From contig NW_023501095.1 in assembly GCF_014066305.1 (NCBI RefSeq), positions 55,001 through 119,000 on the forward strand: a stretch of 64,000 bases of DNA, read 5' to 3'. A program made the translations under genes and the position numbers. How positions within the stretch are numbered: position 1 is the stretch's first letter; each line of letters begins with the position of its first letter. Positions 1 to 62,301 of the stretch are shown here, one piece after another. The notes beneath the pieces are model-generated. The model was not told the origin of the DNA. It did not search any database and was given only the letters and a program-made list of their open reading frames with translations. This DNA comes from Letharia columbiana (Eukaryota; Ascomycota; Lecanoromycetes; Lecanorales; Parmeliaceae).

Positions 1-1744
1 GTACCGCCCTACAAGTACTCATAGACCTGGACCGGAGGGTCCTCCGTCTTAAGGAAGTTGTGTGTGGCGAACAGCAAATTGCTATACTCGTAGCGGAAGC
101 TGTGCCTTGAGTGCGCAGCGGCTCTCCGTAGTCCCGATGAAATGGAATGTTTGAATGTCTGAATGCCGCTCGAAGTTTGTCCCATGTTGCCGCTGCAGCG
201 AATTGTGTCTTTACGAGGCAGGTCTGTTTGAAGAAGCAAGACAACAACATTCATCAAGCGTGGAAGCTCGGACGCCGGCAAGGTTCAGATTAGCGTGCCA
301 AGGATGTCCTATCAGTCAATCTCTTGGCGTTTGGTCTGCGATTCTTTTCCCGCTGACAACCTGCATCATGGACGCACTGCTAATGGTCCCGGCATACATT
401 CAGGAAGATGCGGCATCTGTGAGCTTGTTGCAAAGGCAAAATGCAAAATGCAAAATGCCGCAATGTTGGCTTGAGGATACTTTATCATACTCTAGCGGAA
501 CATGGCCGCACTTGATCTAACCCGGTAGCAGCCTAGTTTCCGCTTACCCGCTCTTTCCTCCTTTCCGAGACGTTGCCGAGAAGGCCTCGGAAAGGAAGAC
601 AGAGAAGTCATTCCATTCCGTCTTCATCATATCCTCATATCATCTGATCCTGCACCTGCTCCCCATCTTTCTCTTCTTCTCTATTTCCATTTGAATACGC
701 CATCATGCAGCATGTTCAAGGTATAGATTAAGGACTAAATAAAAGTGTTGCTAGCCTTCTTCAAGGGCTGGCCCCATGTCCTTCCGAGGTCCTTTGCTGG
801 ATTACCGCGGCTGATCACCTTACACCAGTCCACACATGAGCTGTTTTCATACTGCGGTTTCTTTGATCTCCTTCAATCTCTTCATTCATTGTACAATCAG
901 ACATCATTTAGTCTCCGCCTCTTTCCGTTGTCGTCAAGAGTGATGATGGTGCCTTGCCACTCTCGCTAATGTCGAATGCATAGATCGTTGATCGATCACT
1001 GCTCTACATTAGGAAACTCGCTCCAGCCTGGACTTTTAAGGACTCCTACATCATTCAACGTTCTAGTACAACAAGTCTGGCCTCCATCACAGCAGGATGA
1101 AGAAAACGGACAAAGAAACTTTCTTACTTCTAAGAAGAAGGGATCGATCCCGCCCTTGTGCTTCAGGCCGCTTGAGTTCCCCATTTCTCCCGGTCACTGG
1201 AGCATGCCTGCAACAATACGTGGACCACTAAGCACCCTGCAAAATAGTTAGCTACAGGTCTGCGGCATTCGCTGGCGCGAATGCTTACATGGGGTCGGTA
1301 GAATTATTTCAAATTTCCCCCAATCACTATAGGTCCAGACTTTTAGAAACCATGGTGGATGATATTGGCCTCCAGTCAATCCACTGGGATCGCTGTCCTA
1401 TGCAGCGGAAGTCGGTGGGCCATGCAAAGAGTGACCATGCGCAGCTTCGTTGGCGATCGAGTAGAGAAGACTTCCTTTAGGGTATCGTCTCCATGCTCCA
1501 TGGCATCTACCCCGCTTCCATTGTTTTCCGAGAGCTGCCCTGCATCCCCAAGTCTCTTTCCTGTCTGCACGCCTTCCGCGACATGCCGCAAGGCGTCCGT
1601 TCCGTCTTTCCTAAGATCTGGGCACGTCGTCCGATATCAAGGCACAGGTTCAATCACATTCTCATTTTCAATTTAAAAAGCCTTCGATTGCTTCGCCATT
1701 CCACCTCTCAAACTCGTGATAGTTCCTCCTGGCATTCTTCCACC
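1..1744. other. Left-edge region without a recognisable gene
   Basis: No reading frame here looks like a known protein, and the short ORFs on both strands overlap one another without conserved motifs. A small tandem repeat of the unit AAAATGC sits near 437-458. The last few hundred bases (about 1400-1744) are pyrimidine-rich and should hold the promoter and 5' leader of the NRPS-like gene that starts at 1745. Confidence 0.5.
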
Positions 1745-4700
1745 ATGGCTACCAACCATACGACTACCCCTCCAGCGGACTACGGACACAGATTGATACC
1801 CTCTCTGGTGGATGAATATGCTCGAACCGATCCAGACTACGTCTTTGCACTGGTTCCAAAGGCGGCAAGCTTCGCGGATGGCCTGGAGAAGATCACTATC
1901 AGTACCTTTGCTCGGGCAGTGAACGAGATTGCCTCGCGGATCGACTCGACTCTTGGGAAGAGTACTGATTTCGACACGATTGCCTACATTGGTCCCAGTC
2001 AGTCACTACGTCAACGAAAATGAACCACTCCAAAGCTGACCCCCAGTAGCGGATCTCAGGTACTTTGTCATTGCCATTGCTGCTTCCAAAGCGGGTTATA
2101 AGGTCGGTCTACGCGTCTGAATTCCAGAGACCTTACCATAAAACTAATACATACCCCAGACTTTACTACCCTCCCCACGCAATAGCATCGAGGGCATTCT
2201 ATCTCTTCTCCAATCCACCAAATGCCAGACCTTGCTCAGCGCCCCCGATACCAAAGTCGACCACATCTTGGAAAAGCATTCCATGCGACACATTGTCATT
2301 AGAACATTCAAGGAGTGGGTGGCTTCAGAGTCTGTTGCCCACTATCCATACGAGAAGACTTTCGAGGAGGCAGCTCATGACCCGTTCATCGTCATACATA
2401 CATCGGGGAGTACTGGCTTACCGAAGCCTGTCACACTTTACCACGGAGGACTCGCAACTCCAGATGCGCATCACATGATGCCTCGGTTGGATGGTTACGA
2501 TCCTGAGATCATTACTCCACAAGGCCAAGGCCCTACACGCATTTTCACTAGCCTGCCCCCGTTTCATGTAAGTCATATTCTACATCTATCCACCTCACTG
2601 CAGACGTTGTCGTGTATTCATATCAAGTACAGGTGGCCGGGATACTGGGTTCACTTGTTCTTGCCTTGTATTACCACCAAACAATCGTTTGGCCGCCTGC
2701 TGGCCGACCAGTCAGTACAGATATGGTCGATGACCTTCTCGATAACGTGGAGGTAGACGGTTGCTTCCTTGCACCTTCTGTGTTGGAGGACTTGAGTCAG
2801 TCGGAGAGCTCTCTGGAGAAGCTGAGGAAAATCAAATTTGTGGAATATGGTGGAGGTCTGGTCCCTCGCATCCCTTTCATATTCGCCATGCTGACTAAGT
2901 ATAAGGGCCTCTTGCCAGACGTGCTGGTGATATAGTCGCAAAGTATACCAATGTCATCAACATATTGGGCTCTTCAGAAGCGGCACTCTCACCACTGTAT
3001 CACAAGGAGCCAGAAGACTGGATGTATTTCCACTTTAATCCTGAGATGAAAGGTGTCGAATTCCGAGAGGTCAGTGACGGGCTTTACGAACAGTTCTTTC
3101 TGCGTCATCCGTCCACGGATACCTATCACGCCACGTGGTACACTTTTCCGGACCAGTCAGAGTACTCGATGAAAGACCTCTTCTCTAAGCATCCGACTAA
3201 ACCCAACTTATGGTTCTATGAGGGCAGATCAGACGATGTGATTGTGTTCTCCAATGGTGAAAAGTTCAATCCCAGCGCAATGGAAGCCACATTGCGTACG
3301 CACCCGGATGTCACTCATGTTGTTGTTGTTGGGCAAGCGAGGTTCGAGCCAGCCGCGTTGATTGAGCTCAAGGAATCACCGTTGGAAGAGGCGAAGAAGG
3401 ATCTACTCGATAGCTTCACACCATACCTCATCAAGGTCAATGAGACCGCCCCAGCTTACGCGAAGCTTCAGCGAGATCACATCGCTTTTATCAAACCAGA
3501 CAAGCCAATGATTATGGCGGACAAAGGTACTATCAAGCGAGCCGCGACTACGAAAGCGTACGAGGAGGAGATCGATCAAATCTATGCGAATGCTGACGAT
3601 GCTTCATTACCTACAATCAGTCTGGATGCTGAGGATCTAGATGCTCTAACAGAAGGGTTGCGAGAGCTGTTGGTGGGGACTATCGGACTGGAAGCCATTG
3701 CACCAGACCAGGACATCTTCGCCGTTGGAGCGGACTCCTTACAAGTCATGAATCTCGTGCGACAGCTCCGGTCTTCTTTCACAGCTCAGCAGGGACATGG
3801 AGTGATCCCTCCTCATTTGATTACGCCAAAGATCGTATACTCCAATCCAACAGCAGCCAGACTAGCCAATGCTCTCCACCAACTGACGGGTCATAGCGCA
3901 GAAGTTTCCGAGAAATTGGAGGAAGAACGAATCAAAAAGATGGAAGAAATGCTTTCCAAGTACTCCGAAGACCTACCGAAAGCCTCTGCGAAAGACCTAC
4001 CGGAAGCCTTTGCCAACGGTATTGATATCAAAGAAGACAACGACAAGCTGACTGTTGTCCTCACGGGCAGTACCGGCTCCCTCGGCTCCTACCTTCTCGA
4101 CGCTTTGCTGGCCTCTGACCAAGTGTCGAAAATCATCTGCCTCAACCGTGGAATCCACAGCGAAGACAAGCAGAAAAGATTGAATGCCTCTCGAGGCCTT
4201 GTTACTGAATGGGGAAGAGACAAGGTCCAATTCCTTACTACTGACCTCGGCAAACCTCGTCTCGGCTTGAACGACCATGACTATGGTCTTCTCGTCAAAG
4301 AAGCCTCCTTCATAATCCGTAAGTCAACTATCATCCCCCACTTTGCCGAAATCCTCGCTAATCGTCAAATCAATCAGACAACCAATGGCAGGTAGATTTC
4401 AACCTCAGCCTCGACTCGTTCGAGCCCCACATCGCCGGCGTCCGCGACTTCATCACCCTCTCAAGCGAATCGGCGAAGAAGCCCCCGATCCTATTCACAT
4501 CCAGCGTCTCCACGCTCGGGAACTGGCACGCCAAACACCCGGGCGAGAAAGTGCCGGAAAAGGCGTTTCACGACTTCACGATCCCCTCGGCGATGGGTTA
4601 CGGCGAGTCGAAATACATCGCCGAGTTGCTGCTCGAAGCCGGCGCGGAGAAGTGCGGGGTCCCCGCCGTCATCTGCCGGGTGGGGCAGCTGGCGGGTCCG

Positions 4701-5405
4701 GTGACGAAGAAGGGAGGGATGTGGAGTAAGCAGGAATGGCTGCCGAGTGTAAGTTTCCGCCCGTCCTTTGTCCTACGCATCATCAATGTGTCGCCCGAAG
4801 AAAAGCGTGGAAGTTGTGATTATCAAGGTACCATCACCTCTACCCCGAGCTGACATCACATTCCCGACGTCAAGATAATAGCAAGCTCGAAATACCTCAA
4901 CCAAATCCCCACCGACATCCCAAGCCAGGACACCGTATCCTGGGTCCCCGTCGACATCACCGCCAACATCATCCTCGACCTCGTCCTCGCCAACGCCTCC
5001 CAACCACCACCACCATCATCGTCAGCCGAGGCCCCCAAATCCCACAACTACAACATCGTCAACCCGCACCCCGGCTCCTGGTCCGCCCTCGTCCCCGCCG
5101 TCACCCGCTATTTCCAAGGCGGCAACGACGGCACGACCAAAACCCCCGCACCACCCATCACCCCCGTCCCCTTCACGGCCTGGCTCTCCGCCCTCCGCGC
5201 CTCCGCGGCCCTGGGCACCGAGGACGTGGCCCGGAACCCGGGCATCAAGCTGCTCGAGTTCTACGGCGGGATGAGCGAGGACGGGGCGGAGGAGGAGGTG
5301 ATGCTGGAGACGGCGGAGACGGCGAGGGGCAGTGCGAGCATGCGGGCGTTGGGGCCGGTGGGGGAGGAGTGGATGGGGATTTGGTTGGGGCAGTGGGGGT
5401 TTTAG
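1745..5405 (+). CDS. NRPS-like adenylation-carrier-reductase (A-T-R) enzyme
   Basis: Predicted 1084-aa multidomain enzyme that should activate a carboxylic acid as an acyl-AMP, load it on a carrier domain and release it reductively with NAD(P)H. Seven exons fit: 1745-1997, 2047-2102, 2160-2567, 2633-2855, 2906-4318, 4378-4748, 4875-5405, with phases that close. The start is the ATG in the context CACCATGG. The AMP-binding core VIHTSGSTGLPKP lies near residue 180. The phosphopantetheine-site GADSLQV is near residue 590. The reductase Rossmann motif TGSTGSLGSYLL is near residue 700, with YGESKY further on as the probable catalytic Tyr/Lys pair. There is no condensation domain, so this is not a peptide-forming NRPS. 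The order matches fungal carboxylic-acid-reductase-like and Lys2-like enzymes; the missing alpha-aminoadipate N-terminus argues against Lys2. The substrate cannot be told. No other biosynthetic gene adjoins it. Confidence 0.9.
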
Positions 5406-5444
5406 GTTGGTGTAGGGTTGATTGAATTGGGTTGATGAAAATTG

Positions 5445-5477
<33 letters not shown>

Positions 5478-6197
5478 AGTTGTCCCATTCATGAAAAACA
5501 CGCATCAATGCACGCATAGGGGCCCACATAGAGTGTAGAGAGTGGTTGGGCCGTCTCACGCCGGGGGATAGCAAGCCTAAATAGGCCTAAATGGAGGCCT
5601 GAACAGGCAAATTTCTCGTACCCCAGCGCAAGAAAACTCCCATGCCTATGGCATAGACCTGGAGTGGAATGATAGCTAGCTATGTACAGGTGTGGGTGGG
5701 TGGGACAAAAAGTATGCAATGGCTCCGAAAGAGACGAGATCGAGTTGAAGAGCCATTGACGGGTGCGAAACAGGTGGCTATATAGGTAGCTCGTACTGGA
5801 CACCTGTCTCCTTCCTTACCCCTTGCGGGGGTACCGACAGGGCCATGAAACAGGGGCATGTCATGTGACCCACTAACCCCCAGTCTCACTGTGGCGACTA
5901 TGCTGGGTAGATACAGTACTGTGCCCCAAGCAGGTCCTTACGAATCTAGCCTTACTTGACCGTCTTACTCGACCGCGATTCACAGAATTCAATTCTTGGT
6001 TCATTCAGTGGGCCCGCGTGATCAGAACAGTGAGGCGGAATCCTACCTCACGGCGAGGACCCGTGAGAAGCTTGGTACCGTGACGACCCAGCCTGCGCTC
6101 CGCACGTCTAGGAGCAAAAGGAATAGGAAGCCAAATCGGGTGCTCGTGTCCCGTTACATCCACCGAGGTGTAGCGACGCCATTCACAAGCCCATACG
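5406..6197. other. Intergenic region with an ATTG microsatellite
   Basis: This is the gap between two convergent genes. A GATT/ATTG tetranucleotide run lies at about 5444-5475, directly after the NRPS-like stop codon and probably within its 3' UTR. No coding frame on either strand shows a recognisable motif. Confidence 0.5.
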
Positions 6198-7974
6198 TCA
6201 CCGGTAGGAAAACCTGTCATCGTCGAGCCGATCCCAGAAGGGTGACGGGCGGACCATTTCGCCGTCCATGACGAACGGCATCCGGATGTGAGGGCCCTTG
6301 GTCGCTCTTTCGGTCGCGGTGTTCATGATGAGCTCTTGCTGATGGGTCCAGAGAGGGTCTGCCGAGGACAGTTTGGTCCGGAGCGCTTTGAGCTCGGCGC
6401 AGTGGACGTGGGCGATGCCGACGCGGGCCTCGTCGTCGCGGTCGGATAGATCGAAGGTGAAGCGTTGCTGGTCTGCTCGCAAGGTGTCCAGGGAATATAG
6501 ACGAGAGGCTGCGGGACTTTTGGAGCCGGCGATGAGATCGAGGGATCGGAGGCGGGGTGTGGGGATCGGATGGCCTCTGCGAACCCGAGAATTGAGGATC
6601 TCCTGCCATAGGTATTGCCAAATTCCTGGGACGCTGTCTTCTGTTGCCTTGGGAGAAGTAGGGTTGTCATGTTGGGGATTTTCGATCAAGATGTTGAGCT
6701 CCAGATGGACAAGGAACCAAAATTCATCCGCGATGTATTTGAGCATTGTATATGGCCGTAGATGCCGTCAGCTTGACATTGGAGGCTATGACGACGTGGG
6801 ATATCGGACTTACCCACTCTTGCCCGTTACATTGAATATCAAGACCGAGGCTACGCAGGTTGCGGCAATACTTTGCTATGCGTCCCATGTCCCCGAAGGA
6901 TAAAACAAGTCTTTCACCCCCTCTGCCTACATTTTCGTCTTCATGCAGCCTCAGCTTGATCAATGTCTTCCCAGCGTTTTCCCACAAGTCTTCCTCGCTT
7001 ATCCGGATACAGGAGGTGAATCCAGTCAAGTCCAGGACTTCAAGCTTTTTACATTCTTGCAAAACAATGCCCAAAGGCACACTGTTATCACCAGAGTCTC
7101 CGGCTCGCAACAGAAGTGATTTGAGCCCAGCAAAGTCCGGCATGAACGTTGGAAGGTAAGACACACTGTCCAAGGACAGTCTTTCCAACATTTGCCAAGC
7201 GATTGGGAGTTTGACGATGCCGAAAATGGGGCCGTAAAGCTCAAGAGATCTAAGCAGAAGGATTTGGGGCTCCCCTTGCACCTGGTCTGGTGAAACGCGA
7301 GGAATGTTGAAAGCGGACGCGATCGTAAGGTCGCGCAAATTTGGAGCAGAGGAGAGTACCTTCTTAAGTTCTGTGAAAGCTTGATACTGTCCACTTGTAA
7401 GTGTTACGTCTAAAGAGAAAAGACAAGGTGAGGCGCATAGGCGTGGCAGAGTCTGGGCCGAATCCTGACTCCCGGGATGACGGGTATATAACAAGCATTG
7501 CGGATGGTGTGTTTGGAGGGTCTTTAGGAGCCAGGACAGTATAGGGTACTGGGCGTCCCAGATGAATGTCTTCAGCCCAGTCAATCTTGGTAAAGCTCGA
7601 CCGAGCAGTTCAAGATCCTCCTTGCTACCTTCCCCATGTTGGAGTTTGGCGGACGGAGCCCAGAGGATACGTATCTCTCGAACTTTGGCGCTCAAATCGT
7701 CGTCAGTCAACAGCTGTTTGACAAGTCGTCCGTTGACATCTCGCCTGCTACGGTTGAACGTGAAATGAATGACACGGTAAATGAAGCTCCTTGAAAAGTG
7801 GGACAATGATCTAGAGCTCAGCGCAACATTCAGCAGGGTTTTAGGGGAACTCTTGCTCAGCTGCAAGTAACATTAGAGCCTAGAGTATGTCATAATCCAA
7901 AGGTCGGATCTCCTCACCACTTCGAGAATCATCAGCTGGACATCTACGTCCAATGCCAGAAGAGCGTTTGCCAT
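6198..7974 (-). CDS. F-box-like / leucine-rich-repeat-type protein
   Basis: Predicted 534-aa protein. Three exons on the minus strand fit: 7918-7974, 6814-7860 and 6198-6698. The N-terminus reads MANALLALDVDVQLMILEVL followed by SKSSPKTLLNVALSSRSL, which is the usual shape of a fungal F-box (LPxEhLxxIhxxL, then a helix around SLxxLxxTSR). Downstream are leucine-rich stretches such as LLRSLELYG and KLEVLDLTGF, as in F-box proteins that recruit ubiquitylation substrates to SCF ligases. The start is the only ATG in frame; upstream extension lacks one. The first intron (57 nt) is clear. The second (6699-6813, 115 nt) is less sure: the donor is a perfect GTAAGT, but the acceptor was picked because it restores the frame. 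No substrate can be inferred. Confidence 0.7.
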
Positions 7975-10115: not shown

Positions 10116-10290
10116 ACTGCGTTGGTGCAAAGGTCAATGGCGGCGTGGAAGAAGCCCCCGGGGGAGGGGATGTTAATCGAATGATATTACAGAGTACTGG
10201 GAAAAGCAGTCAAAGAGCTTGTGGATGGGGAGACTTGCCTGGTGGTCTTCTGGCTTGACGTTGCATGGAACCCGAGGGTGTTGAGGTTCA

Positions 10291-10351
10291 CTTCACGGTC
10301 TGGCTGGCGGGGAACGAATGAGAGAATCTGAGCCTGGGGCTGAAGACTTTT
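10291..10351. repeat. Direct repeat, copy 1
   Basis: About 61 nt, beginning TTCACGGTCTGGCTGGCGGG, that recur about 693 nt downstream at 10984-11046 with roughly 90 percent identity. It lies about 175 nt after the stop codon at 10115. The second copy lies about 175 nt after the stop of the relic ORF at 10645-10809, which suggests that a whole gene plus its 3' flank was duplicated in tandem. Confidence 0.75.
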
Positions 10352-10644
10352 CAACTGCAGCCATGTGTGTCGTCGGATGGTTCTGCCGGACGATCTACAA
10401 TTACTAACATTCAGATGGTGTCAAACGATTTAGTTTAATCACGAACGAACAACTATTGTTTTACTATTTCGGCTGGGCTTTAAATCTTATATCTGAGCGA
10501 GTTATTATCCGTGCTTGTGTAATATAAAATTGTGAACCTCGGCTGCAAAGCTTGCAACTACTAGTTTTCTAAACTCATACGACAAGCAACTGTCCATCCC
10601 GATCAACGCGATCCAGCTTTGATAAACACTGTGCAGGAATCGTC

Positions 10645-10809: not shown

Positions 10810-10983
10810 ACGACTGATGTCGCTGTATGCCTCGTTAGTAATTATCTTCTACTGCCCGCCACTACCTTGCTGGTGATTGAATATCAATGCAACTCGTTCC
10901 AGTCTCAAGGCCGTGATCTCCAGATTGCAACACCCGTTGTGTAGTTCCCTTGCTGTTATCTTCAAGCCGCCATGTTCTATTCT

Positions 10984-11046
10984 ATTCACGGTCTGGGTGG
11001 CGGGGAACGAATGGGAGAATCCGAGTCTCGGGCTGGAAACTTTTCT
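10984..11046. repeat. Direct repeat, copy 2
   Basis: Second copy of the repeat at 10291-10351, with a handful of substitutions and one single-base gap. Same orientation as copy 1. Confidence 0.75.
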
Positions 11047-22274: not shown

Positions 22275-23491
22275 ATGTCGGAGTACAAGTATGCTGATGT
22301 GAGCCTCTCGGACACCAAAAAAATGGGTGCCAGGACGTTGATACTGGATGATAGGTGGGCATCAACCTCACAGACTCCACCTTCAAAGGGGAGTGTAAGT
22401 TACATTTTCCGAGTCAATTTTTCCCCATTGGTGCTGTCTTATGGGTCACCACACATATCTCAAAAGTTCTCTGCTCCTAAGACATGTCCCGCGACTCGAC
22501 ACTCCTCCCGAAAGAGTAATGCTGACTCCGAAATCATCAAGACTACGGCAAACAGCATCACGCAGACGACACGGAGCATGTCATTCAAAGGGGTGTTGAT
22601 CTCGGGTGTCTCAAGTTCATGGTCACTGGAACCGATTTGGAGGAGTCGAAGAAGGCTATCGCTCTCGCAGAAGGATACCCAGGACGGTGTTACGCCACTG
22701 TAGGCGTTCACCCATGCCAAACAGAATCATTTGATAAGCACCCTGGCGGGCCTACAGTCTTGCTACAGGAGCTCGAGACACTGACCGTTGACGCAAAAGG
22801 TCGAGGTCTTGCTACCGCGTTTGGAGAAATCGGGTTGGACTACGATAGGTTACATTTTGCAGGCAAAGAGCAGCAGCTCAAGTACTTTGAAGCGCAGCTT
22901 GATATTGCGGTTAAAGTTCAGTTGCCATTGTTTCTTCATTCCCGCGCCGCTGGTGAGGACTTTGAAAGATTGCTGTCTGCTAGATTGCCTAGCTTACCGA
23001 GAAGAGGCTTGGTGCATAGCTTTACTGGCACCATGGAGGAGATGGAGAGCTTGGTGGCTCTTGGGTTGGATATTGGGGTTAATGGATGCAGCATGAAGAC
23101 CGAAGAGAATCTAGATGTCGTGAAAGCTATTCCCCTTGAACGTTTGCAGATCGAGACCGATGGACCATGGGTACGTTGTTCCTCTGGGAACGCTCGCTTC
23201 CGACCGTCCATTTTCCTGGCTGCTAATCGCTCAAAGTGTGAAATGCGGGCCTCGCATGCCTCAGCAAAATACAAAGATGACGCTCAAGGACTGCCGAAAT
23301 CAGTCAAAAAGGAGAAGTGGACCGCGGACTCAATGGTAAAAGGCCGTAACGAATCAGCCACCATTGTCCATGTTGTCCATGTCATTGCCAAGGTCAAGGG
23401 GATCTCGACCGCTGAACTTTGTCAAGCAGCATGGAATAACTCCATAAAGATGTTTGGCTTGGGAGAGACATCAGATCAGCAAAGGCCTTGA
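22275..23491 (+). CDS. TatD-family deoxyribonuclease
   Basis: Predicted 315-aa metal-dependent hydrolase of the TatD family (3'-5' exonuclease/endonuclease linked to DNA repair and apoptotic DNA breakdown in yeast and animals). Exons: 22275-22298, 22355-22394, 22542-23170, 23237-23491. Motifs: VGINLTDSTFKGE near the N-terminus (the usual D-x-x-x family position is GINLTD rather than the bacterial DxHxH), VGVHPC, AFGEIGLDYDR, LPLFLHSRAAGEDF, GLVHSFTGTMEEM and IETDGPWCEM, which together hold the metal ligands. Intron 2 (22395-22541, 147 nt) is much longer than the others and resembles long introns in two unrelated genes of the window. The first coding exon is only 24 nt. Confidence 0.93.
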
Positions 23492-25619: not shown

Positions 25620-26135
25620 TCAACGCATTGACATACACCCACCACCTCACCGCCCCCAAGAATAAAAAAATTCAAAAAAATAAAAAAAAATCTAAACCCC
25701 TCCCCCCAATCCCCATCAAAACCTTCCACCTCCCTCCCACCACCACCACTTCCACTTCAAACGCCACCCTCCAACAACAATCCACCAAACCTACCACCCG
25801 CATCACCCACCGCGCATTCTACTCTAATCTACTCTACTTCCCTCTACAAAATGATTACCAACCCCAGTCCCACCCACCCACCCAAGTGAAACGCCAAAAG
25901 GGTCAAAAGGGCCAAACTGGATCGAAGGTGATGCCGCCTCCCCACACTCCACACAAGCCAAGTCAAGTTAAACCACCAAGCCAAGTCCAAACCAAACAAA
26001 AGCCAAACCAAACCAAGTTGAACCAAGCCAAGCCAAACCAAACCAAACCAAACCAAGCCAAGCCAAGCCAAGCCAAGCCAAGCCAAACCAAGCCAAGTCA
26101 ACCCAACCCAACCCAAGCCAAACCAAGCCACTCTC
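25620..26135. repeat. A/C-rich low complexity and CCAAG/CCAAA satellite
   Basis: Poly-A patches (25664-25690) and C-rich sequence grade into a 5-bp array of CCAAG, CCAAA and CCAAC units, densest at about 25960-26130. The plus strand has almost no G over long stretches. It translates into Trp/Leu/Gly or Lys/Pro/Gln repeats in all frames, so the ORFs here are not genes. Confidence 0.85.
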
Positions 26136-26269
26136 TACCTTATTACTTTATATACCTTACCTGACTGTACAGATTTCAGGTAAGGGACGTACCTAGATGA
26201 CAACTCGACGCATGGCTTATCCTGTGGTAAGGTATGGCCCACCGCTCAACTGAGCGAGCGAGCGGGTGG

Positions 26270-26640
26270 GTTTTATGTGGAGGGGGTGGGTGAGGTGGAG
26301 GAGGTGGGTGAGAATAGGTATGGTAGGATAGGGTAGGGTAGGGTAGGTGAGAATAGGTAGGGCAGGGTGGGTGAGAATAGGTATGGTAGGGTGGGTAAGA
26401 ATAGATTGGGTAGGGTAGGGTAGGGTAGGGTAGGTGAGAATAGGTATGATAGGGTAGGGTAGGTAAGAATAGGTAGGGTAGGATAGGGTGGGTGAGAATA
26501 GGTAGGGTAGGGTAGGGTAGGTGAGGGTAGGTGAGAATAGGTAGGGTAGGGTGGGTAAGAATAGGTAGGGTAGGTAGGGTAGGTAAGAATAGGTATGGTA
26601 GGGTAGGGTAGGGTAGGGTAGGGTGGTTTGTTGGATCTGT
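26270..26640. repeat. G-rich TAGGG minisatellite with GTGAGAATAGG units
   Basis: About 370 bp built from TAGGG pentamers interrupted at irregular spacing by GTGAGAATAGG or GTAAGAATAGG. The plus strand is almost free of C. It resembles, but is not, the fungal telomere repeat TTAGGG. It could form G-quadruplexes. The minus-strand ORFs encoding long Pro/Tyr/Thr/Leu repeats are by-products of the array. Confidence 0.85.
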
Positions 26641-26890
26641 GATGCGAGAGGTAGGCAAGGTACTTGGGACTCACTCAGGAGCGAAGATGGTATGAGGATG
26701 TAATGTAACGGAGCGGACGGCGAAGTTGATTTTCGCCGCGCAGTACACGAGGAACCAAGGAACCAAAACCAGATACTTGTGCGTCTACCGTGCATCCAAA
26801 AGGCTGACGGTACGACTCATATTACACATACATACAATCATTTGGCGGAAGAAGAAAACAAGATGCATACATAAACCCATCAAATCTACT

Positions 26891-43698: not shown

Positions 43699-43761
43699 GA
43701 TAAACGCCGAGGCCCCGGCAACATAGGGCGAAATTTGTTGCCTCTCGACGTTTATCGGATA
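43699..43761 (+). repeat. 60-bp palindromic element, copy 1
   Basis: Begins GATAAACGCCGAGGC and ends GACGTTTATCGGATA, so its two ends are inverted copies. The inner arms CAACA/TGTTG surround a core TAGGGCGAAATT. A second copy, in opposite orientation and nearly identical in the central 30 bp, lies at 46161-46218 on the far side of the permease gene. It looks like a very short palindromic mobile element or a conserved hairpin-forming sequence. Confidence 0.75.
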
Positions 43762-44151: not shown

Positions 44152-46018
44152 ATGGCTACCAACGATTATAAGCACGGCTACGGCGATGATGGCTTCGTCA
44201 ACGGCAACAGCTCAAGCCAAGACTACGACGAGAAGGCCCGCAGTGATCTTGAAGTCGTTCCTTCGAAGAGCAAGGGCTCTATGGGGAAGGACGATCCCTT
44301 TGGAGATGAGACGAATTCAGAAGTCAAATATAGGACTATGGCTTGGTGGTCAGTAGCGTCTTCCGAATTTCAGGCCTACCTTACGACTCGGCTAATAGCA
44401 TGTTCACAGGCAAGCGGGAATGAGTATGCAACCCAGGCTCGAGACCATTAGAAACCGCATCTTACTGATGGTCTGCAGTCATGATCGCCGAGACCATCTC
44501 CCTCGGGATCCTCTCGCTCCCCTCCGTTCTTGCCTCCCTCGGTATCGTACCGTACGTTCAGTTCCTCAAAGGCCCGCCAAGCCCATGACTGACGATGCTT
44601 CCAGCGCCGTCATCTTAATCATAGGTCTCGGCATCATCGCAACGTACACCGGCTACGTAATTGGCCAGTTCAAACTCGCCTATCCCCACGTCCACAACAT
44701 GGCCGACGCAGGCGAAGTCATGGCTGGTCGGATTGGTCGAGAGATCTTCGGCGGCGCCCAAATCCTCTTCCTGGTCTTTGTCATGGGCAGCCATATCCTC
44801 ACATTCTCCATCATGATGAACACAGTGACTTCTCACGGAACCTGCACGATTGTGTTTGGCATTGTGGGCATGATGGTGTGTATCGTCTTCTCGCTACCGA
44901 GGACGTTGAAGAAGGTTAGCTATATGGCTATTGCAAGTTTCATCTCTATCTTATCGGCCGTGATGATCACCATGATTGGTGTTGGTGTGGAAAGGCCGGG
45001 CAGTGGGAAGGTGGATGTGACGGTTCAGTCAGACCTCTCTAAGGGCTTTGAAGCAGTTACCAACATCATCTTCGCCTATGCAGGTAAAACCCTTCCTCCT
45101 CTCTTTTTATGTGTCTCCCCTACTAATACGGGACCTAGGCCACGTCGCATTCTTCTCCTTCATCTCCGAACTCCACACTCCAGAATCCTACCCAAAAGCC
45201 GTTTTCCTCCTCCAAGGCGTCGACGTCTCCATGTACCTAATCGTCGCAATCGTGACCTACCGCTATGCCGGCAGCGATGTCACATCCCCAGCTCTCGGCT
45301 CCACTTCCCCTCTCTTACGGAAAATAGCCTACGGAATCGCGATCCCTACCATTGTGTACGTTTTTTTGGACTTCAAATTCCCCTTTTCGTAATTGAATTT
45401 TGAGTCTTGAAGCATGTCTTGGGAGTGTCTACTCTCTAGACACGTTCCAAGGCTCTAAATACCCTCTTGAAACAGGCAGTACTGACTCCGGAATGAAATT
45501 TAGGATCGCCGGCGTGATCAACGGCCACGTCGCGTCAAAGTACGTATACGTTCGTCTGTTCAGAGGCACGGACCGGATGAGCAAGAAGAGCTGGAGCAGT
45601 TTTGGACTATGGGCAGTCATCGTGCTGGTGCTTTGGTTCATTGCGTGGATTATCGCCGAGGCCATTCCCGTGTTCAACGACTTATTGTCACTCATCAGCG
45701 CTCTGTTTGCGAGTTGGTTTACGTATGGGCTGAGCGGTGTATTTTGGTTATATTTGAATTACGGGCAGTACCGGAGCTCGAAGCGGAAGATGTTTTTGAC
45801 CGGGGTGAACGTCGGGTGTTTCTGTCTCGGGGCCATCATTGTGAGTTTCACCCTCTCATCCTCCTTGCTTACAGGGGGATTTCCCTGGCATTGAAACATG
45901 CTGACGGAGGCCTCAGTGTGGACTAGGACTATATTCGTCCGGGACGGCCATCAACAAAGACGCCACGAGCTCAAACGGGAGCTTTTCATGCGCGGATAAC
46001 TCCAAGAGTTCGTCTTGA
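44152..46018 (+). CDS. Amino-acid permease, AAAP family (neutral amino-acid permease-like)
   Basis: Predicted 472-aa transporter of the amino acid/auxin permease family (Neurospora mtr-like), with about 11 membrane helices. Exons: 44152-44348, 44410-44423, 44479-44551, 44605-45083, 45139-45355, 45504-45840, 45917-46018. The core begins YRTMAWWQAGMIMIAETISL, then GILSLPSVLASLGIVP, GLGIIATYTGYVIGQFKLAY, GHVAFFSFISELHTPESYPK and IAYGIAIPTIVIAGVINGHV. These are standard for fungal family members. Exon 2 is only 14 nt and is required to give WWQAGMI. Intron 5 (45356-45503, 148 nt) is much longer than the rest and shares its 3' block with two other long introns in the window. The N-terminal 65 residues are hydrophilic and cytosolic. 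Which amino acids it carries is not determinable. Confidence 0.92.
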
Positions 46019-46160: not shown

Positions 46161-46218
46161 ATCCGATAAACGCCGGAGGCAACAGATTTCGCCCTATGTT
46201 GCGGGGTTGCGTTTATCG
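46161..46218 (-). repeat. 60-bp palindromic element, copy 2 (inverted)
   Basis: ATCCGATAAACGCCGGAGGC, then the core ATTTCGCCCTATGTTG, and ending GCGTTTATCG: the reverse complement of the element at 43699-43761 with a few changes in the arms. It starts about 140 bp after the permease stop codon. Confidence 0.75.
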
Positions 46219-48448: not shown

Positions 48449-49711
48449 ATGGCACCATCGCTTCCTACAAGACAGCTTGGCAAGAATGGTAAGGTCCCTC
48501 TCCGAGCGATTTTCCTCCAATTTGTACCCTCTTCGGAGTCTTTAAACATGATGTGGGAGTAATACGTCAGCTGTTCTGGTTTAAAGCTCCTCCGACATGT
48601 GCTGTAGCTTGAATCTCATCTTGATTTTGTGATGCTGACTCCGAAATTATAAAGGTCCTCAAGTCACCGCACTCGGCTTCGGCGCCATGGGTCTGTCTGC
48701 CTTTTACGGCAAGCCTGAGTCCGATGAGGACCGCTTCAAGATCCTTGACAAAGCGTACGACATGGGCGAGACATTTTGGGACTCAGCGGACGTTTATATG
48801 GACAATGAGGACTTGATTGGCAAGTGGTTCAAACGGACCGGTAAGAGGGACGATATCTTTTTGGCCACCAAGTTCGCCAACACCATGAAGGATGGGAGCA
48901 TGACGGTCAGAAGTGACCCTGAGTATGTGAAAGAGGCGTGCGAGAAGAGTCTGAAGCGCTTGGGCATCCCCACCATTGATCTTTACTACTGCCATCGCTT
49001 GGACCGAAAGACACCGGTGGAGAAGACTGTCGAGGCCATGGCTCAATTGAAGAAGTATGATTGTTGAAGTCCATTGTTTGGACCGACTCGTCGCAACACT
49101 CCAAGCGCACATGCTAACAAGTCTGCAGAGAGGGCAAGATCAAGTATCTTGGCTTGTCTGAAGTCTCGTCTGCCTCGCTCCGCCGTGCCCACGCCGTCCA
49201 CCCCATCTCCGCAGTACAAATCGAGTACTCCCCCTTCACCACCGATATCGAGTCCCCAGACATCGCTCTTCTAAAAACCTGCCGCGAACTTGGTGTCGCC
49301 ACTGTCGCCTACTCTCCTCTAGGCCGCGGTATGTTGACCGGCGCCTACAAATCACCAGCAGACTTTGAGGAGGGCGACTTCCGGAGTCGCTCGCCCCGCT
49401 TCTCGGAAGAAAACTTCCCCAAAAACTTGAAGTTGGTGGAAGAAATCAAACAGATTGCACAGAAGAAGGGTTGCACGCCGGGGCAGCTCACTTTAGCGTG
49501 GCTGTTAGCACAAGGCGAGGATGTGATTCCCATTCCCGGGACCAAAAAAATCAAATACTTGGAGGAGAATCTAGCAGCTCTCGAAGTCAAGCTTACGTCG
49601 TCTGAGAATGCGGATATCAGGAAAGCAGTCGAAAATGCTGAAGTACACGGACAGAGGTATCCCGAGCAGATGATGGTGACCCTGTTCGCTGACACCCCTG
49701 AGCTAAAGTAG
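48449..49711 (+). CDS. Aldo-keto reductase
   Basis: Predicted 340-aa NAD(P)H-dependent oxidoreductase of the (beta/alpha)8 aldo-keto reductase superfamily, cytosolic. Exons: 48449-48488, 48655-49054, 49129-49711. Catalytic residues are visible: Asp56 and Tyr61 in FWDSADVY, Lys86 in FLATKF, His127 in DLYYCHRLD. Other marks are [46 protein letters not shown] and the cofactor-binding [14 protein letters not shown]. It resembles the AKR13-like group common in fungi and plants that reduces aldehydes and ketones; the substrate is unknown. The first exon is 40 nt. Intron 1 (166 nt) is the longest coding intron of the plus-strand genes and is related to long introns in the TatD and permease genes. 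Confidence 0.93.
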
Positions 49712-60415: not shown

Positions 60416-62301
60416 ATGGCTTCTCCTCCTCCGGAACTCATCAAATTAGCTGCGCAATATGTCCTCACATGGCCCTCGTGCATTGTGCGTTTACCAGCAA
60501 GCACTCAGTGACGATAATTTCCCAGCTAACCTACTGACCTTAAAGCAACCGGATGCAATCAAGGGCATGATTGCCAGCGGGTGTCCTTCTGATCCAAAGT
60601 GTTTCTGCGAAGACAAGATATTTCGTCTCGAGCTGCTGGCTGGCATCACAACAAACTGCACTGCAGCTGATATGCTCAGTGAGTGCTTGTTTTTCCTAGC
60701 CGTGAACCTTGCCCGGTCCCCAGTATTTTTCCCGTGATCTAAGTGTGAGAGTGATTTCAATATGCTCATAAATCTTCAACAGCAACGCAAAGTCTCGCCA
60801 AGGAGCTCTGTCCCGTCCTAGACGAAAGCCGAGAGGCCACAGTCATTGCAGTTTTGGTCGTCATTACTCTGCTGGCACTCGTCTTGGTAGCTCTGCGCAT
60901 TGTCTCCAGGAAGATCGGACATGTCAAGTTTTGGTGGGAGTACGTCTTTCCTGACTCGTTGTCCCCCTTCAGTAGCGAATCCCTAGTCCAAAGACATTTT
61001 GAGGAGTATATGGCCCTATCATGCTTCTCGGGGTATCTTTGGGGCGACTGAGCATTTTCTATCGGCAATGCTAACTTCAAACCAATGTGTAGTGATTATC
61101 TGATTTTCTTCGTCATGGTTCGTTTCCAAAAAAAATCTCAACGAGCCAATCCGACTAATTTCATTGCAGTTGGTCACCCTAGGTGAAACAGCGAACATCT
61201 TGAGCGGTGAGTTTCATGTTCCCGAGTTCCTTGAGTACCATTGGAACGGGTATGTGGGACCAGAAGACTCACGCTTGTTCGATGATCAGGAGTAGTTAAC
61301 GGCATGGGGAAGCATATCGTGACACTTGGTGCTTCGCACATGACGGGGTTTCTCAAGGTCTGCTATCCAGACGCTTCCCCAAGTCTTGGGGAGAGGTTCT
61401 GAAGACTGATGTTCTCCAGAACTTCTGGATCACGCAAGTCCTCTTCGCTTTCTCAATGACGGGACTGAAGATGTCCATCCTCCTATTCTATCGCCGGCTC
61501 TTTACGGGACGCCCGATGGCTTTCACTCTGATTCTCGCCGGATGTTTCAACCTAGCCTGGTTTGTCGCTCAATTTGTCTCCGTCATGGTCTCCTGCCGAC
61601 CTCTGGCCTACTTCTGGGACAAAGCTATCCCTCACGGTAGATGCATCGACGAGAACCTAGCGAGTTATTTAATCACGGGCGTCAGCCTGCTCATGGACGT
61701 CATCATCTTCTTGATACCAATCCCTCCACTTTGGGGCTTGAAAAAATCGTTGGCACAACGCCTAAGTCTCATCGGACTCTTTCTAGCCGGTGCTCTGTAA
61801 GTGACGCGCCCCATGCCCCCGCTGATGAACCGCAGCGCCCGGAACTAACGCCACTCTTCTCACAGCGTATGCGTAGCAGGAGCGGTCCGCATCCCTTTCC
61901 TTGTAGAGTTGGATCTCACCGACATCACGTGGTCCGTCGTCCCCGCCGGTCTCTGGATCCAAGTAGAGGTCAAAGTCGGCATAGTCTGCGCCTGCCTTCC
62001 TACCTTGCCGCCACTGTTCCGCCGCGTGCGTCAATACCTGCTTCTCCTCAGCAGCGGCAGTGGCAACAGCGAACGTTCGCCCTCCTCGGGTGACAAAAAC
62101 GGCGGAAGTGTCGTCGTCGCGGTTGATGATGCCAGGAATGGCGACGCGAGTCCGGACCGGGAGGGCAGGGGCAGGAAGCAGCAGGGCTGGTATTCGCAAA
62201 TGCTGAATAGCTTGAGCAACAAGAGTGCAGAGGGACGAACGGAGAGTCGAGAGGAGATTTTTGAGGTTCACGAGAGGAAGTTTTCTGATGACTCCGTTTG
62301 A
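60416..62301 (+). CDS. CFEM-like, rhodopsin-domain (PTH11-type) receptor-like protein
   Basis: Predicted 433-aa plasma-membrane protein. Eight exons: 60416-60484, 60546-60678, 60783-60939, 61093-61117, 61170-61206, 61290-61357, 61420-61796, 61866-62301, phases closing. The N-terminal region is Cys-rich like a CFEM domain (SCIQPDAIKGMIASGCPSD, KCFCED, TTNCTAADM, KELCPVL), but I count six Cys where classic CFEM has eight. Seven membrane segments follow: VIAVLVVITLLALVLVALRI, DDYLIFFVMLVTLGETANIL, MTGLKMSILLFYRRLF, FNLAWFVAQFVSVMVSCRP, YLITGVSLLMDVIIFLIPI and SLIGLFLAGALVCVAGAVRI among them, then a polar tail. This is the class I PTH11 architecture, linked in some fungi to sensing host surfaces. 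Introns of 104 and 153 nt occur near the 5' end. Confidence 0.88.

Follow-up and report, generated by a model that had tools for sequence, protein, structure and literature searches.

Related introns in unrelated genes of the lichen-forming fungus Letharia columbiana are introner-like elements with palindromic family consensuses

Why do two introns in unrelated genes of a lichen-forming fungus resemble each other? The question is raised by a 64-kb stretch (G000:C60:55001-119000, hereafter the window) of the genome of Letharia columbiana (Parmeliaceae, Lecanoromycetes), which comprises 52,243,142 bases in 161 contigs. A sequence-only reading of the window had proposed that intron 1 of an aldo-keto reductase (AKR) gene and intron 2 of a TatD-type DNase gene are related introner-like elements (ILEs). 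The former lies at 48489..48654 on the plus strand (166 nt, phase 1, GTAAGG..AAAG) and the latter at 22395..22541 on the plus strand (147 nt, phase 1), and these positions and lengths were borne out. Identity over the last 69 nt had been estimated at about 70%; the ungapped comparison gives 49 of 69 positions (71%). The exact 14-mer GCTGACTCCGAAAT is indeed identical at 48634..48647 (AKR) and 22521..22534 (TatD), both on the plus strand. It consists of CTGAC, which we take to be a branch-point motif from general knowledge of fungal introns, followed by the 3' near-terminal inverted-repeat element TCCGAAAT. Local alignment of the two introns scores 38, a value reached by none of 3000 dinucleotide shuffles. 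Ordinary introns of the window had been put at 44-70 nt. In a spot check of two, TatD intron 1 (56 nt) falls within this range and the ordinary AKR intron 2 (49055-49128, plus strand, 74 nt) lies outside it.

The window holds a third, more diverged relative, an intron of an amino-acid transporter gene at 45356..45503 on the plus strand (148 nt, phase 2). Its pairwise similarity is weak or borderline (20 and 36 of 3000 shuffles reach its scores), and it is counted as a relative because the profiles of the families described below show it, with partial-length matches of 28.4 bits (B1) and 27.8 bits (A). AKR intron 1 scores 131 bits with the profile of family B2, of whose 10 sequences it is one, and TatD intron 2, itself part of the family-A profile, scores 144 bits with that profile. 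Nothing at 13 bits or more was found when the reversed window was scanned. A weak B1 match (13.9 bits) at 60958-61028 may be a further decayed introner. Other repeats were also observed in the window: a 31-nt inverted repeat at 43714-43744 and 46176-46206 (94% complementary), between whose arms, 2.4 kb apart, the transporter intron sits; a 66-nt direct repeat at 10287-10352 and 10980-11045 (86% identity); and short tandem repeat stretches at 25965-26650.

The host genes of the three introns are unrelated. The AKR gene begins with a start codon at 48449 on the plus strand; exon 1 extends to 48488 and exon 2 covers 48655-49054. Intron 1 lies in phase 1 and interrupts the codon that follows LGKN; the spliced protein is 100% identical over 340 aa to the annotated HO173_010644 of L. 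columbiana. Orthologous proteins occur in L. lupina and in Pseudevernia, Alectoria, Usnea and Imshaugia. TatD intron 2 interrupts the tyrosine codon of GEYYGKQHH, also in phase 1, and the protein read from the joined exons has a PF01026 match over residues 10-231. For the transporter intron, the joined flanks match PF01490 over residues 1-157 of 171.

Are there further copies in the genome? The AKR intron as a query returned itself and one relative. The TatD intron returned at least 40 scored matches, itself included, which is a lower bound as 40 of 62 candidates were scored; the 39 others are 79-85% identical to it, and 29 of them cover its full length (1-147). The shared 3' motif, with up to three mismatches, occurs at 246 genome sites, compared with 17 for the reversed pattern. 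The family-A 5' motif occurs at 36 sites (control, 0) and the family-B 5' end at 32 (control, 8). Thus, further genomic copies do exist, and they lie in unrelated genes.

These copies fall into at least three related families. Family A, with a length of 147 nt, has 49 copies scoring 60 bits or more with its profile among the fetched loci, a count that excludes five further places found by the TatD-intron and 5'-motif searches. Divergence of its copies from the consensus ranges from 4.8% to 16.8%, with a median of 8.7%, and the two most similar copies are 97.3% identical. Family B1 comprises nine sequences (consensus 156 nt, median pairwise identity 71%) and family B2 ten, including the AKR intron (consensus 166 nt, median pairwise identity 62%). 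The B1 and B2 sets were drawn from 16 of 20 fetched B sites together with L002, L055 and the AKR intron from earlier loci; L093, L109, L110 and L111 were omitted as off-family, short or doubtful. The consensuses are 0.75 (A-B1), 0.66 (A-B2) and 0.75 (B1-B2) identical with one aligner, and 0.76, 0.76 and 0.81 with a second. This comparison indicates that the AKR and TatD introns belong to different, related families. The relationship claimed for them therefore stands, with the refinement that they are members of B2 and A and not copies of one element.

When the three profiles were run on 159.5 kb of merged loci, 83 matches of 20 bits or more were found, and none in the reversed sequence. Fifty-three of the 83 reach 60 bits and are mostly query copies; the other 30 are weaker and more diverged. 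Among the weaker matches, 25 share a stretch with a strong copy, 24 of them on its strand and one not, and five have no strong copy beside them. At the density of the window, three matches per 64 kb, the whole genome would hold about 2,400 (Poisson range about 500-7,200); this figure extrapolates from a single window chosen for these introns. An LCAT gene (L037, G000:C2:1288889-1291911) contains four introner-related matches on one strand within about 1.7 kb. Some stretches are near-identical between contigs: L127 (C33:650017-650239) and L128 (C91:50883-51105), and likewise L135 and L136 (C75 and C88). One of these pairs carries an introner-like intron with its exons, which presumably encode GMP synthase, as judged by eye. 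Such stretches are either recent duplicates or redundant haplotype contigs, and copy counts may therefore include a few doubles.

The borders of the family-A copies coincide with splice sites. GT stands exactly at the predicted start and AG near the predicted end in 46 of the 49 copies, with AG at the predicted end in 42 and 1-2 nt before it in four. The three copies without one of these dinucleotides were dropped from later counts. Spliced flanks were translated for 39 copies with a clear frame, and 20 of these were tested against Pfam: 16 gave a match above the cut-off, one (Kelch) a match below it, and three none. The hosts belong to many families, namely short-chain dehydrogenase, MFS transporter, alpha/beta hydrolase, methyltransferase, LCAT, aconitase C, pectate-lyase-like, IMS polymerase, GNAT, MRJP, trehalase, amino-acid permease, enolase-like, D-serine dehydratase, AAA_11 and peptidase M13. 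In 11 of the 16, the best match extends at least three residues beyond the junction in both directions. In the dehydrogenase and M13 hosts, the junction is where the match ends or starts, and in the methyltransferase, IMS and GNAT hosts the match lies on one side of it; in the methyltransferase host, another Pfam family spans the junction. A codon model trained on the 16 Pfam-matched copies scored the spliced sense frame above the antisense frame in 26 of the 30 copies outside the training set. The sense score exceeded 5 in only 13 of these 30 and in none of 46 shuffled controls, and no antisense score above 5 beat the sense score among the 30. The four copies that score better in antisense include TatD, although the TatD gene is certain. 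Reading frames together with the public gene model suggest that splicing takes place at the element borders.

Related genes offer sites at which the presence of the intron can be compared. The two closest AKR paralogs, on C75 and C88, are 65-66% identical to AKR over residues 126-310 and near-identical to each other. Both have an uninterrupted reading frame across the position of AKR intron 1, and within this genome the intron is thus not shared by the gene family. Further along, both paralogs show frame breaks, seen by eye, that read as introns where AKR has none. They are therefore no retrocopies devoid of introns, and it is simpler to assume that AKR gained its intron. By eye, the C75 paralog lacks about 40 nt of exon present in C88 and may therefore be a broken copy. 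For the MFS host on C93, 21 of 34 other matches, at about 28-41% identity, cross the junction unbroken and stop-free, and five more cross it with stops; the rest do not cover the junction. Compared with their paralogs, the introners of both AKR and MFS appear to be recent gains. Two MFS paralogs, L133 (C25:202840-203060) and L134 (C25:338480-338720), have ordinary introns near the position of the C93 introner, roughly 10-12 nt from it by eye and not at it. They recall the near-coincident intron positions described in the accessible text of PMC4457414. Taken together, the many copies, the unrelated host genes and the empty AKR paralogs support the introner-like reading, and the AKR and TatD introns are ILEs.

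The three families have a common design. The whole length of each consensus (A, B1 and B2) forms an imperfect palindrome, which folds as a long hairpin. Alignment of the A consensus with its reverse complement gives a score of 25, whereas shuffles score -13.9 +/- 7.2 and one of 2000 reaches this value; none of 1000 shuffles each reaches the symmetry of B1 or B2. The corresponding z values are 5.4 (A), 7.7 (B1) and 6.3 (B2). A symmetry z above 2 is found in 33 of 46 A copies compared with none of 46 upstream exon controls, and in eight of nine B1 copies and five of ten B2 copies; the AKR intron has no symmetry left (z -0.46). Both arms of the A consensus carry AGACATGTCT. By eye, TTTCNGAG near the donor can pair, except for one base, with CTCCGAAA between branch point and acceptor. 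Despite the imperfect whole-length symmetry, the outermost bases GT..AG are not inverted repeats. The A consensus folds with -47.8 kcal/mol (z -6.1), and single copies have a mean z of -1.9, with z below -2 in 18 of 46, so that structure is weak in many of them. In the minimum-energy fold of A, the 5' end pairs with a stretch upstream of the branch point, and the folds of B1 and B2 extend to the 3' end. The three consensuses share a fold, as alifold gave -45.7 compared with -7.8 +/- 2.7 for column shuffles. Of 47 pairs across them, both sides have changed in four and one side in seven, and 16 contain a broken member. Families with different 3' ends had been expected to have 5' ends complementary to them; by eye, only the core TTTCNGAG / CTCCGAAA recurs at 20 fetched sites, and the flanking part of the forecast was unsupported. 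The TatD copy with its flanks (251 bases) had no Rfam match at E<=1.

Is the hairpin kept in the copies? Covariation, which would have proved an RNA structure kept in them, is absent: two-sided compensations in family-A hairpin pairs number 11, against 11.1 expected by shuffling. Divergence is 10.6% at paired and 7.8% at unpaired sites of family A. The parts that change least are the first 6 nt (3.6%) and the last 27 nt (5.6%), low values that are flattered by the finding of some copies via end motifs. Because the pairs decay base by base without compensation, the hairpin is not maintained in resident introns. It was present in the elements that spread, and it is not kept up for the sake of splicing. 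Simulated neutral change of a perfectly palindromic founder reproduces the remaining symmetry of the three consensuses, as judged by a blunt identity measure in which a shuffled sequence averages 0.62. Selection for the hairpin in source elements is therefore not claimed. Family-A copies show no RIP-like decay, as C>T and G>A have no clear excess over other transitions. Two loci with unusual arrangements were observed. L116 (G000:C9:236198-236420) is an intron-like stretch that, by eye, contains an inverted copy of its own 3' end, with arms of about 40 nt each and a short loop between them, as if from fold-back copying; it might bear on the origin of symmetric introners. In L102 (G000:C2:520990-521220), a further GTACGT stretch comes immediately after a B1 element without its hairpin centre (107 nt); these may be tandem or nested introns.

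The insertion sites of family A have their own features. There is no excess of target-site duplications (TSDs) of 1-6 nt over re-paired flanks. Among shifted comparisons, one (3 nt, shift 3) has a nominal p of 0.036, which we take as chance among many tests. C is found at -2 in 28 of 46 copies (p 5e-7) and at +2 in 25 of 46 (p 5e-5), compared with 26% in nearby exons, and C at -2 is common across all three phase classes (4/6, 15/21 and 6/12). AG| precedes the intron in one of 46 copies, and an AG|GY preference is thus not seen; we do not treat AG|GY as defining because the preference varies among known ILEs. The B families do not have the C motif of family A, with C at -2 in six of 19 and at +2 in one of 19, and they show T at +2 in 12 of 19 by raw count. 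Phase 1 is preferred in family A. In the 16 Pfam-matched copies together with TatD, phases 1, 2 and 0 number 12, 3 and 2 (p 0.002), and nine of 12 are in phase 1 when the 11 copies with a domain across the junction and TatD are considered (p 0.004). Guesses from open frames for 39 copies give 21, 12 and 6 for phases 1, 2 and 0 (p 0.007), counts that are approximate because TatD was guessed to be in phase 0 and is in phase 1. A reading of family A as [D1,2] stwintrons was rejected, as the external donor G that should immediately precede the internal GT is found at -1 in only 11 of 46 copies.

How might such introns spread? A source intron, once spliced from its host transcript, would fold back as a hairpin that holds the two ends in contact and stabilizes the free intron RNA. 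This RNA could then be reverse-spliced into other transcripts or into transcribed DNA, and the inserted intron would be copied to DNA and fixed. The resident copy would be an ordinary intron, whose hairpin may erode while the splice signals stay. An RNA route is favoured because the elements have splice-site borders, lie in sense in coding sequence and show no TSD of 1-6 nt. In the accessible text of PMC8469720 and PMC9860276, reverse splicing followed by reverse transcription has been proposed for other fungal ILEs. It is very probable that the introns are ILEs of L. columbiana; that they spread through such hairpins and reverse splicing and later eroded is the route we infer for them. The simplest picture of reverse splicing would favour the AG| context, which is rare in family A (1/46). 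This rarity and the palindrome are unexplained by plain reverse splicing, and a DNA foldback route therefore keeps some weight.

The elements might instead be non-autonomous DNA transposons (MITE or foldback) with splice sites, of which only spliceable sense copies in genes survive. The whole-length inverted symmetry of the three consensuses resembles a foldback element, and most introner families outside ascomycetes show DNA-transposon signs according to the accessible text of PMC9860276. However, introners of this type would carry TSDs of 3-9 bp, and TSDs of 1-6 nt are lacking in family A; the ends of the elements coincide with GT and AG, and most of the copies examined lie in sense in coding frames, whereas random insertion would be expected to leave many neutral copies in non-coding DNA. 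We regard a transposon origin as unlikely, if still worth some weight. Somewhat less likely again is a route without reverse splicing, in which the repair of breaks in transcribed genes takes up intron cDNA by fold-back DNA synthesis or template switching. The palindromic design, the lack of TSD and the inverted copy of its own 3' end in L116 (by eye) would suit this route, but break repair usually adds or loses bases, and the precise splice borders of 46 of 49 copies would be hard to obtain in this way. That the introns are old and conserved and resemble each other by chance around the branch point is highly improbable and was rejected on copy number: the branch-point motif is indeed part of the longest exact match, but no shuffle in 3000 reaches the score, dozens of copies exist and the paralog sites are empty. 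Duplication of genes or segments, suggested by the near-identical stretches on different contigs (L127/L128 and L135/L136, by eye), has just as little probability and was rejected because the flanks are unrelated, as family-A flanks differ from one another and the hosts belong to many different Pfam families.

Introns that spread by reverse splicing of a hairpin remain our preferred reading, and they can be compared with known systems, here through the accessible parts of the cited papers. Like the ILEs of Dothideomycetes (Fulvia fulva, Dothistroma septosporum and Zymoseptoria tritici; PMC4457414), the Letharia elements are similar spliceosomal introns in unrelated genes, are longer than regular introns, form several families per genome and include older, degenerate copies. 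According to the summary in PMC8469720, those ILEs also insert seamlessly and have inverted repeats or stable predicted structures, as the Letharia elements do. Unlike them, the Letharia elements belong to another fungal class, and family A has C at -2 and +2 and no AG|GY preference; this comparison is by description and not by sequence. An AG|GY site preference is reported for Capnodiales and was not seen in Hypoxylon (PMC8469720). The nearest layout, again by description, is that of the internally symmetrical sister (stw)introns of Xylariales (PMC8469720, PMC12403724), whose letters differ. Both have 10-nt palindromes, inverted symmetry that is lost in more diverged copies and a near-terminal inverted repeat located between the branch point and the acceptor; in both, TSDs are absent, the introns function only on the coding strand, and there are paralogs without the intron. 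The Letharia elements are plain introns of 147-166 nt, whereas those of Xylariales are stwintrons, and the palindrome is WTTCTAGAAA in Xylariales and AGACATGTCT in Letharia. Family A shows a phase bias and an exon motif, whereas PMC8469720 reports neither for its introns. That the hairpin is not maintained in resident family-A introns agrees with the conclusion drawn there for Hypoxylon. As in the introners of algae and other aquatic eukaryotes (PMC9860276), introns multiply across unrelated genes. Many of those introners carry TSDs or TIRs of DNA transposons; the same source gives ascomycete families as having neither, whereas the Letharia consensuses have an imperfect inverted symmetry over their whole length.

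No report of introners in lichen fungi was found in the literature searched, and an unnamed record in supplementary species lists is possible. In the accessible text of PMC11889510, introner-like elements are mentioned only generally and lichens only in the references; in that of PMC9860276, pezizomycotina fungi are named and the word lichen is absent. The accessible part of PMC11708051, which covers 829 fungal genomes including 52 of Lecanoromycetes, reports that 5,831 of 25,467 introns of horizontally acquired genes match their own genome by BLAST, with 86% average identity, and does not contain the word introner. Repeated introns in such fungi may therefore already be counted there, unnamed. 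Oligonucleotides of the element occur in one paper, which by its title and abstract concerns a Listeria enzyme. ILEs are known from some other fungi, and the Letharia set adds a lichen fungus, which is unreported in the literature searched.

The origin of new spliceosomal introns is an old open question, and fungal ILEs are among the few systems that allow a direct view of it. The Letharia set separates two roles of the hairpin that are easily mixed, its maintenance for splicing and its presence in elements that spread. We tentatively suggest, and would not bet on it at even terms, that the mobile intron works through its palindromic hairpin, that only sources with an intact hairpin multiply, in bursts that each have their own target, and that the architecture of Lecanoromycetes and Xylariales arose separately or was inherited. 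If this is true, each family would be a lineage of self-complementary intron RNAs, and the targets of the bursts would be C at -2 and +2 for family A and perhaps T at +2 for the B families. Thousands of introns, perhaps most of the longer ones, would then be eroded former hairpins.
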